A stretch of 55,488 nt of DNA from an uncultured Actinomycetes bacterium (lineage in GTDB: Bacteria; Actinomycetota; Actinomycetes; Nanopelagicales; Nanopelagicaceae). A model generated the notes under the pieces. It had not been told where the DNA came from. It saw only the letters and a list, made by a program, of their open reading frames with translations, and searched no databases. Both the position numbers and the translations under genes were made by a program. The stretch spans positions 1 through 55,488 of the forward strand of contig CALEGP010000025.1 in NCBI GenBank assembly GCA_937876245.1, given 5' to 3'. Positions 31,276-34,218 of this stretch are shown here, piece by piece; within the stretch, counting starts at the first letter, position 1; every line of letters starts with the position of its first letter.

Positions 31276-31696
31276 TTAGTAACTAAGTAAGCTAGATCAA
31301 GCGCAAGATATTTTGGATCGTGCGGGGCCATCGGCGATGTTTTGGATGACGGATATTGCGGCACAACTTGCTTTCTTGGCTGCGGCACAAGTCAATGGAA
31401 TTTCTACCAATGTTGGCGTGGAGGTAGGCGAGAGCGCTACCCCTGAGGCGATCATTAATGTTGTGGTTCTGGGTTATGGCAAGTACTCAAAGCGGAGACT
31501 GAATTTTTCATTGCTTAATCCTTGCCTTTAGCATCTGCCGTAGGTAAAGCGGGAGCGAAGTACAAATCAGTTGGACAAATAACGGTGACTATATTTCGAT
31601 CACTAATTGAGCGTCGAAAAATATGCAGATTTGATAGACATTGCGTAGTAGGTATGTTCTCCAATATTTTCTCGGTTTCTGATTACAATGAATTTT
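31276..31696 (+). other. Gene-poor 421-bp stretch, possible gene remnant
   Basis: I see no convincing gene here. One frame is open from about 31283 to 31531 with gene-like composition (for example the residues WMTDIAAQLAFLAAAQVNG and VGESATPEAIINVVVLG) but has only a TTG (31313) as start and no ribosome-binding site, and it ends in a low-complexity tail. It may be the decayed remains of a gene. The last 30 bp hold TACAAT, the probable -10 of the next gene. Confidence 0.35.
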
Positions 31697-32596
31697 ATGA
31701 ATCTGTCGACCAATAAGAGCAAGTCATGGCTTCCCTATTTTATCGCGCTTTCATTCGCCTGGGGCTCTACATTCATATTCATTAAGGTGTGTTTAGAATT
31801 TTTAACTCCAATTGGTGTGGCATTTGCGCGATTTGGGTTAGGCGCGCTCTTTATGTTGTTATACAGCACAAGACTTAAACTGAAGTTTCCTCGCGAAAAG
31901 AAGATCCTAATTCATCTTTTTGTGCTCTCTTTATTTTTTAATTCTCTATTTGGCATCTTACTTGCTCTTGCAGAGACTGGGATAAGTTCTGTGCTCGCGG
32001 GTTTAGGAGCATCAATCGTTCCCCTAATGACCCTCTTCTTTGTTGCCCTAGTTTTTAGAAGTGAGAAATTAGGTACTGATCAAATAGCTGGTCTGGTTAT
32101 TGGCTTTCTTGGGGCCTTGATGATTGTCGGTGTGTGGAAGGGGATAGGAGATAGCCCATGGTGGGCAATGCTTGCCTTACTAGGTGCCACTATGTGTTAC
32201 GGAGCTTCCTACCCATACACAAAGAAGTACATTCTGCCCCATGGAATAAGACCAGAGGTAATGGCAACGACGCAGCTTTGTTTTTCAGCCGCGACGCTCT
32301 TGCCACTATTTATATTTTTTGGTGTAAAGCAAGCACCAGAAAATTCGGGACAAATAGGTGCAGCAATCTGCATTGGTGTTATTTGTAGCGGCATTGCCTA
32401 TGTGTGGAACTTCAAAATCCAAGCCGCCGCTGGTTCTATAGTTGCCTCAACCACCATGTATGTAATACCTATCGTTTCAACCATTCTAGGAATTACGGTT
32501 TTAGGCGAATCTATTACCTGGAATGAACCAGTTGGATGTGCAATCGTTTTGCTGGGAGCGGCAATTAGCCAGGGCCGGATAAATCTCAAATCGTAA
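31697..32596 (+). CDS. DMT-family transporter (EamA)
   Basis: A 299-residue drug/metabolite transporter with about ten membrane segments in two EamA repeats. FAWGSTFIFIK in the first helix and TPIGVAFARFGLGALF in the second are typical; the second repeat holds ICSGIAYVWNFKIQ and VLGESITWNEPVGCAIVLLGA. Members export amino acids, metabolites or nucleosides. I chose ATG 31697 because it stands 6 nt after TACAAT; ATG 31688 would lie inside that element. Stand-alone gene; the substrate is unknown. Confidence 0.88.
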   Translation: MNLSTNKSKSWLPYFIALSFAWGSTFIFIKVCLEFLTPIGVAFARFGLGALFMLLYSTRLKLKFPREKKILIHLFVLSLFFNSLFGILLALAETGISSVLAGLGASIVPLMTLFFVALVFRSEKLGTDQIAGLVIGFLGALMIVGVWKGIGDSPWWAMLALLGATMCYGASYPYTKKYILPHGIRPEVMATTQLCFSAATLLPLFIFFGVKQAPENSGQIGAAICIGVICSGIAYVWNFKIQAAAGSIVASTTMYVIPIVSTILGITVLGESITWNEPVGCAIVLLGAAISQGRINLKS

Positions 32597-32627
32597 AATA
32601 TGGGCGTTTCGGCATTTTCGGGCAATT

Positions 32628-32641
32628 ACCAGAGCTCTGGT
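32628..32641. repeat. 14-bp palindrome after the transporter gene
   Basis: ACCAGAGCTCTGGT is a perfect palindrome, 32 bp after the EamA stop. As RNA its loop would be too tight for a normal terminator, so a protein-binding site is as likely. Confidence 0.35.
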
Positions 32642-32717
32642 GAGTTGTTACGGGCAAGGCCCTCGGGCCCAGTGATTGCGGTTTAACGGAAACTTCTAAC
32701 GCGCACTTCCTACTCTT

Positions 32718-32735
32718 GCTCGATACGATTCGAGC
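32718..32735. promoter_or_regulatory. Inverted repeat upstream of the CDGSH-like gene
   Basis: GCTCGA (32718-32723) and TCGAGC (32730-32735) flank TACGAT, which may itself be a -10 element. The site is 28 bp before the small gene's start, where an operator would act. Confidence 0.4.
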
Positions 32736-32762
32736 CTTCAAAACTAGAGAAAGAAGGAAATC

Positions 32763-32912
32763 ATGGGAGCTTGTCAGTGCGGTTACACAACGGATCCAGA
32801 GAAGAACTGCAACGGAACTCATAAAGTGGTCCAGGCAGTGAAGGCAGATATTGCTGAGCAGCTGGAAGCTGCTGGCTTTCCACATGCATCTGAATTTGTG
32901 AAGAATAAGTAG
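32763..32912 (+). CDS. 49-residue CDGSH-like iron-sulfur miniprotein
   Basis: A short gene of 49 codons. The ATG has a good ribosome-binding site (AAGGA, 6 nt upstream). Residues 4-20 read C-x-C-G-x-T, six residues, then C-N-G-T-H, which resembles the CDGSH iron-sulfur motif (C-x-C-x2-S/T-x3-P-x-C-D-G-S-H) with C4, C6, C16 and H20 as possible 2Fe-2S ligands. It differs by one extra residue before the third Cys and by Asn for Asp. The rest is one amphipathic helix (AVKADIAEQLEAAG) and a short tail. Possible redox or cluster-carrier role; no partner is seen. Family membership is my inference from the motif. Confidence 0.65.
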   Translation: MGACQCGYTTDPEKNCNGTHKVVQAVKADIAEQLEAAGFPHASEFVKNK

Positions 32913-33043: not shown

Positions 33044-33667
33044 ATGCAGATCAACATAGATAAGAAATCGGGAATATTTATTGCTGTGATTGCCGTCTTA
33101 TTAATAATAATTATGGCGATGGGGATGTCAGGAAGAAGTGATAGTAGCTTCTTTGGAATGGACCACAATGACGGATATATGATGAATGAGAATGGTTCTT
33201 CTTCTGTAAGTGATTTAACAGGATCCGACATTATGTTTTTTCAGATGATGATTCCTCATCACCAACAGGCTGTCGAAATTTCTGATCTTGCACTAGCCAA
33301 GAGCAAAGATTCCGAACTGCTTGCCTTAGCTAGAGAAATTCGAGATGGCCAAGCTTCTGAGATTATTACAATGAGGGCATGGCTAGATGCTGCGAATGCC
33401 GAGATAGATATGGGCCATCATATGGAAGATGCCATGGGCGGAATGTTGGATGATTCAGAACTTGCCCAGTTAGACGCTGCAAATGGAAAAAGTTTTGATC
33501 TCTTGTGGCTGTCAGGAATGACCGAACACCATGATGGTGCACTTCATATGACATCAATGATTCGAGACTCCAACAGTGCACAAATTAAGAAGTTTGGTGA
33601 GGCCATAGTTATCACCCAGAGCGAACAGATTACTCAAATGACTGCAATGATGAAGCGAATGGGCTGA
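33044..33667 (+). CDS. DUF305 domain protein, membrane-anchored
   Basis: A 207-residue protein with one N-terminal membrane segment (residues 12-29) followed by an extracytoplasmic, ferritin-like helical DUF305 domain. The two signature His pairs are MMIPHHQQAVEIS and MTEHHDGALHM; methionine- and histidine-rich stretches around them (DMGHHMEDAMGGM) suggest copper or other metal binding. AGAGAAG lies upstream of the ATG. DUF305 proteins are often found with copper-handling genes, though none is recognisable here. The DoxX-like membrane protein follows 116 bp later. Confidence 0.9.
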   Translation: MQINIDKKSGIFIAVIAVLLIIIMAMGMSGRSDSSFFGMDHNDGYMMNENGSSSVSDLTGSDIMFFQMMIPHHQQAVEISDLALAKSKDSELLALAREIRDGQASEIITMRAWLDAANAEIDMGHHMEDAMGGMLDDSELAQLDAANGKSFDLLWLSGMTEHHDGALHMTSMIRDSNSAQIKKFGEAIVITQSEQITQMTAMMKRMG

Positions 33668-33783: not shown

Positions 33784-34218
33784 GTGAATACTTACCTCAT
33801 GCAATGGCTTCGAAGAGTGCCCCAGATAGTTCTAGGGATTGCACTTGTCTATGCAGGGCTGGGACATCTGACTACAAGCCGTCTAGAGTTTCAGGCACAG
33901 GTACCGACAGTGCTACAGGATTATGCAGATTTTGTTGTACTGGCATCCGGAGTACTTGAAATACTTTTGGGAATTGGTTTGATCATACTGTGGGGGTATC
34001 GAACACAGATCGGTTTATTGGTTGGAATTTTCTTTGTTGCAGTTTTCTGGGGAAATATCTCGCAGTATGTGAATGGTGTTGATGCCTTTGGATTGAATAA
34101 CGACAGAGCTAGATTTACCCGGTTGCTCTTTCAGCCCTTATTGGTTGCGTGGGCATTGGGTAGTACGGGGGCGTGGCGTGAAATCAGGGCGTTTGTGGAA
34201 TTACACTTAAAAAGTTGA
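33784..34218 (+). CDS. DoxX-like membrane protein
   Basis: A 144-residue DoxX/DoxD-type membrane protein with four hydrophobic segments. The first, VPQIVLGIALVYAGLGHL, is characteristic of the family; the others are VVLASGVLEILLGIGLIILW, IGLLVGIFFVAVFWGNIS and a weaker last one near LLFQPLLVAWAL. The family is linked to redox or stress functions but is poorly defined. The start is GTG 33784; ATG 33799, 6 nt after AATACT, is a fair alternative. It has the same direction as the DUF305 gene, separated by a hairpin. Confidence 0.78.
   Translation: MNTYLMQWLRRVPQIVLGIALVYAGLGHLTTSRLEFQAQVPTVLQDYADFVVLASGVLEILLGIGLIILWGYRTQIGLLVGIFFVAVFWGNISQYVNGVDAFGLNNDRARFTRLLFQPLLVAWALGSTGAWREIRAFVELHLKS

Follow-up and report, generated by a model that had tools for sequence, protein, structure and literature searches.

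CISD or NEET proteins (PF09360), among them the type 3 and type 4 prokaryotic CISDs and mitoNEET, hold a labile, redox-active [2Fe-2S] cluster in a four-ligand loop of the form C-x-C...C-[D/N]-G-[STA]-H. As described by Lin et al. (PMC3174974), CISD structures have in common an N-strand ahead of this loop and a P motif containing a lid-proline, which together form a beta-sandwich, and the same account describes known CISDs as requiring this dimerisation module around the loop. For the DoxX family, a membrane-associated complex of M. tuberculosis has been described, DoxX-SodA-SseA, in which DoxX, SodA and a thiol oxidoreductase form an oxidoreductase complex (PMC6930017).

The gene and its CDGSH-like loop

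The window, the whole stretch of 55,488 nucleotides that was analysed, corresponds to contig C25 in a genome of 1.52 Mb. A short gene in it encoded a protein, here called P0001, with the same four-ligand loop. The following features were located in the window:

31688..32596, + strand: EamA-family transporter, 302 aa, upstream of P0001 and not recurrent as a neighbour
32752..32758, + strand: Shine-Dalgarno-like AGAAGGA, purine-rich, 4 nt 5' of the ATG, read from the sequence
32763..32912, + strand: gene of the CDGSH-like minimal protein P0001, 49 aa plus TAG, translation MGACQCGYTTDPEKNCNGTHKVVQAVKADIAEQLEAAGFPHASEFVKNK
32772..32822, + strand: putative metal-binding module, codons 4-20, CQCGYTTDPEKNCNGTH, with C4, C6, C16 and H20 invariant
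32823..32909, + strand: C-terminal part of P0001, codons 21-49, with predicted helices at 18-37 and 40-48 and no beta strand
33044..33667, + strand: DUF305 / CopM-like protein, 207 aa (CopM 72 bits, cut-off 90), between the CDGSH-like and DoxX-like genes
33784..34218, + strand: DoxX/MauE-like small membrane protein, 144 aa (MauE E 3e-5, DoxX E 1.4e-3, both below cut-off), a recurrent partner

The earlier note had described a small gene with a proper ribosome-binding site, and this was borne out by the AGAAGGA stretch and by purine-rich stretches 5' of the start codons in relatives as well. Its reading of the motif was exact in the translation, namely C4-x-C6-G7-x-T9-x6-C16-N17-G18-T19-H20, which differed from the CDGSH consensus by one extra residue between Cys 2 and Cys 3 and by Asn in place of Asp. 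Only three residues preceded Cys 1. A six-frame search of the window gave a single match to the generic pattern C-x-C-x(8-12)-C-[ND]-G-[STA]-H, and 200 mononucleotide shuffles gave none. An antisense ORF of 99 aa (window 32586-32885, - strand) overlapped the P0001 gene and resembled shadow ORFs found elsewhere (cluster c11, 7 loci); such shadow ORFs are probably a by-product of conserved codons.

Distribution and conservation in bacteria

A search of related genomes for this pattern had been proposed, and P0001 was matched in 81 of the 296 genomes of the host family, at 83 places, with internal stops at none of them. The matches covered 37 of 108 high-quality family genomes and 6 of 17 genera, and two genomes had two copies each, G195 (on C38 and C17) and G227 (on C4 at 78642 and 86695, about 8 kb apart). 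A scan of 84,980 species with exact 8-residue query peptides, which detects close relatives only, returned 48 loci, all of them recorded under actinobacterial names. Many bins of freshwater actinobacteria, as well as Ca. Planktophila versatilis and Ca. Planktophila lacus, had relatives, which suggests that the host is a Nanopelagicales (acI) bacterium.

Across the phylum, the bacterial-only profile (A1) matched 4 of 396 genomes, that is the window genome and 3 of the 395 others. The match in G440 was clear (E 8e-31); those in G435 and G307 were weak (E 0.003) and were set aside as chance after their reading frames had been inspected. The G440 copy (L080) belonged, together with L056, L057, L064, L065 and L067, to a longer-tailed subgroup of 52-53 aa from another family of the phylum; the record names suggest hosts among the Acidimicrobiia such as Ilumatobacteraceae.

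The bacterial set comprised 78 loci and 45 distinct proteins, one of which was cut by a contig end, leaving 44 full-length sequences. C4, C6, C16, G18, T19 and H20 were invariant in all 44, and so were D11, E13 and K14. Conservation of the four putative ligands had been named beforehand as a point on which the proposal might be refuted, and all four were kept. Position 17 was Asn in 34 of the 44 and Asp in 10, while every one of the 44, like P0001, had the x9 spacing and Lys two residues before Cys 3. The median pairwise dN/dS (Nei-Gojobori NG86), also called for by the earlier note, was about 0.095 over 693 non-independent pairs of 52 genes with dS of 0.1-2.

The P0001 ORF is a real gene. A chance ORF or a non-functional relic might be proposed, because the ORF is short, its distribution is patchy (81 of 296) and no family model matches it. 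This explanation was refuted by the conservation: the ORF recurred in 81 of 296 genomes free of internal stops, with invariant ligands, low dN/dS indicating purifying selection, a conserved start and ribosome-binding site, and homologues in phages, which makes it close to inconceivable.

Relatives in viruses

With A1, 46 relatives were found on IMG/VR contigs, and with the mixed bacterial and phage alignment (A2) 47 viral relatives, mostly on the same contigs. A motif-based reading of both sets gave 32 distinct viral proteins of about 52-68 aa. The spacing between Cys 2 and Cys 3 was the canonical 8 residues in 20 of the 32 and 9 residues in 12, and the residue after Cys 3 was Asn in 31 and Asp in one. 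As these 32 proteins were picked by motif pattern, ligand conservation is better judged from the rows of A2, where the ligands were invariant in 31/31; the C-x-C pair was absent from the viral search patterns. The canonical-spacing phage copies fitted C-x-C-x2-[ST]-x3-P-x-C-[N]-G-T-H, for example C-G-C-G-F-S-T-E-Y-P-x-C-N-G-T-H, which is the published CDGSH consensus (PMC11138216) apart from Asn for Asp.

The viral nature of the contigs was supported by their membership in IMG/VR and by helicase, primase, polymerase and single-strand-binding genes flanking the CDGSH-like gene in L157 and L170. WhiB was matched in 26 of 48 viral records, including 14 of the 20 of at least 30 kb, and among 14 control genomes in Corynebacterium only. 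This points to actinobacterial hosts, and the contigs that bear the relatives are, judging from these genes, probably those of actinophages. Terminase PF03237 was matched in 0/31 viral records and Gp23 PF07068 in 0/20, where the control also gave no match anywhere. Searches of phage and plasmid records with P0001, and of INPHARED with two of the phage relatives, returned no match. Among PHROGs, no family was usable for P0001; weak similarity to phrog_27955 (65 positions, function unannotated) was seen over residues 1-34, at E 9e-4 for L094, a phage relative, and at E 0.11 for P0001 itself. A tree of 34 columns was poorly resolved and did not give the direction of transfer; bacterial and viral copies were mostly separate on it, so that recent exchange is not indicated.

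Genes for KatG, glutathione peroxidase-like proteins, AhpC or AhpD flanked 18 of 46 viral loci (L129-L174), mostly 2-6 kb away, a count made without a control set and including several contigs that nearly duplicate one another or stop a short way from the gene, so that no enrichment is claimed; the gene families were confirmed for representatives. In L131, L139, L140, L141, L142, L146, L153, L154, L155 and others the peroxide-removal genes lay 2-6 kb downstream. On the probable actinophage contigs KatG, glutathione peroxidase-like genes and AhpC with AhpD occurred as alternative combinations in a similar place. These neighbours are suggestive because cultures of Ca. Planktophila are reported to require added catalase (PMC7527133).

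Relation to CDGSH proteins

No match to P0001 was found among Pfam, NCBIfam and PDB sequences. The Pfam profile zf-CDGSH (PF09360) was matched by 5 of 9 scanned phage relatives at E 0.028 to 0.00019, below cut-off; the best reached 22 bits against a gathering cut-off of 29.5 bits, below which P0001 also fell, with no match. The phage matches covered profile positions 30-48, the last 17-19 of 48, which is the loop alone. L079 (described below) and actinobacterial loci supplied 19 canonical CDGSH domains for hhalign comparison, in which A2 scored 38.1 (probability 94) and A1 scored 26.3 (probability 75). Both exceeded all 100 of their column-permuted control alignments, the best of which reached 17.5 for A2 and 18.5 for A1. 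By profile, then, the loop of the P0001 family is related to CDGSH domains.

The proposal of the earlier note that the protein could define a variant family was upheld in its core, since the ligands were conserved and the profiles linked the family to CDGSH; neither of the two features that it had singled out proved to be a general mark. The Asn is not diagnostic, because Asp occupied this position in 10/44 bacterial and 1/32 viral relatives, a sampled canonical CDGSH domain (L182) reads CNGAH, and the mitoNEET variant D84N is reported to have kept its cluster signal (PMC11138216); by the same result Asn is compatible with a cluster. The extra residue marks only part of the family, as 20 of 32 viral relatives have the canonical spacing. 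Compared with CISD/NEET proteins, the P0001 family thus mostly has Asn for Asp, the bacterial branch has one more residue and P0001 has no Pfam match, while many phage members have the same spacing as CISD/NEET proteins and, like them, Pro at the second position before Cys 3. At the level of sequence, the CDGSH-like loop defines a variant family. No earlier description of CNGTH proteins and nothing titled on phage-encoded CDGSH proteins was found in the open-access literature, which does not prove absence, and nothing relevant was found in the literature on small Fe-S proteins of acI actinobacteria.

A canonical CDGSH protein was encoded in the same genome (L079, G000:C34:70006-70140, open frame of 69 aa), scoring 65.7 bits, above the Pfam cut-off. 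Its loop, CRCGHSKEKPFCDGSHK, is like that of P0001; it differs in having about 35 residues before the loop, Asp at the D position and canonical spacing. Since L079 is a separate gene, P0001 is no replacement for the canonical protein.

Predicted structure and bound metal

The AlphaFold model of P0001, which is metal-free and cannot show dimerisation, had helices at 18-37 and 40-48 (pLDDT about 80-86) and low confidence at residues 1-20 (pLDDT 53-56). The structure prediction suggested in the earlier note was therefore uninformative for the loop, after which the two helices lie. The model of a phage relative was similar, with helices only and a low-confidence loop, and Foldseek with this phage model found no PDB match.

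The N-strand and the lid-proline P motif of CISDs were missing in P0001, as three residues precede Cys 1 and the models are helical: the loop lies at the extreme N-terminus and the remainder is helical. For this reason P0001 is described as carrying a CDGSH-like module and not filed as a CISD member. The view that it is simply a CDGSH domain near the minimum size had to be given up, because the beta-strands of known CISDs, which are part of the full domain definition, are lacking.

CCCH sites are also able to bind zinc, and zinc is the main rival reading. The loop would then be a structural knuckle that binds one Zn2+ and props a helix contacting protein or nucleic acid, with the CDGSH resemblance a matter of ancestry or of convergence without Fe-S. 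The CCCH ligand set and the small size suit zinc, and the beta-sandwich by which CISDs are defined (PMC3174974) is absent. A PDB search with A2 returned the CDGSH entries 3tbo, 3tbn and 3tbm at E 0.011-0.065, which is at noise level, since the unrelated tissue factor scored equally well. However, the profile match was specific to the CDGSH loop, the canonical-spacing phage copies fit the consensus given above, and CDGSH proteins themselves were, according to PMC11138216, initially taken for zinc binders and proved to be Fe-S proteins. We consider zinc an unlikely reading that still deserves serious weight.

Gene neighbourhood and proposed function

In gene maps around 49 loci the surroundings were varied and certain partners recurred. 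A DoxX-like gene was present in 117 of 296 family genomes; both genes occurred in 59, the CDGSH-like gene only in 22, the DoxX-like gene only in 58 and neither in 157 (Fisher p 9e-13), and the table for the largest genus was, in the same order, 49/16/24/46 (p 2e-6). A DCC1-like thiol-disulfide oxidoreductase (PF04134) was present in 85 of 296 genomes, with a corresponding table of 41/40/44/171 (p 1e-6); these DoxX and DCC1 statistics ignore shared ancestry. Of the 83 loci, 50 had the DoxX-like gene on their contig, in 50/50 cases on the same strand; the distance was within 5 kb in 36/83, and in 17/83 the DoxX-like gene followed downstream at less than 100 nt. DCC1 and CDGSH-like genes shared a contig in 28 pairs, all 28 on the same strand, and in 10 the distance downstream was less than 100 nt. 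A same-strand gene cluster with DoxX-like and DCC1 genes is thus recurrent in bacteria.

At the window locus the DUF305 gene separates the CDGSH-like gene from the DoxX-like gene, and no DCC1 match was found in the window genome. In L038, L042, L047 and L048 the CDGSH-like gene was adjoined by a convergent photolyase-related DPRP gene, which is present in at least 177 of 296 family genomes. One example of the recurring cluster of CDGSH-like, DoxX-like and DCC1 genes with convergent DPRP is G256:C1:373121-375662. The arrangement recalls the mycobacterial complex (PMC6930017), which likewise has a DoxX-family membrane protein and a thiol oxidoreductase, whereas here the partners, by gene order and co-occurrence, are a CDGSH-like protein and DCC1.

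A thiol-redox switch or reductant, whose Cys disulfides are exchanged with the DCC1 oxidoreductase and which binds no metal, would also suit the close association with DCC1 and DoxX-like genes and the three conserved Cys. This is improbable, as it leaves unexplained both why G-T-H is invariant and why the profiles match a metal site.

The most likely reading, taken as a whole and held with slightly more belief than doubt, is that P0001 is a minimal CDGSH-type [2Fe-2S] protein and a working partner of a DoxX/DCC1 redox system. The loop of three Cys and one His (C4, C6, C16, H20) at the N-terminus, followed by a helix, would bind a metal, most likely as a labile, redox-active [2Fe-2S] cluster of the NEET kind. 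As P0001 has no beta-sandwich, helix-mediated dimerisation is proposed, which would perhaps complete the metal site. In freshwater actinobacteria P0001 may work with the DoxX-like membrane protein and the DCC1-type thiol oxidoreductase, and this system may cope with oxidative or iron stress by transferring electrons, clusters or iron. A version of the protein is also encoded by some probable actinophages. Iron rather than zinc, dimerisation and the redox role are what we infer. A broader and more doubtful possibility, held only tentatively, is a new CISD fold class, in which a stand-alone CDGSH loop plus helix would hold [2Fe-2S] without a beta-sandwich, would occur in freshwater actinobacteria as well as in their phages, would be coupled to DoxX/DCC1, and in phages would serve peroxide defence during infection.

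A conserved family of 49-68 residues, with hardly more than the loop, would put to the test how small a protein can hold a NEET-type cluster. For acI actinobacteria, whose cultivation is reported to depend on catalase (PMC7527133), the P0001 family offers a marker of redox stress and a candidate partner in it, and it links these bacteria to phages with peroxidase genes near their own copy.
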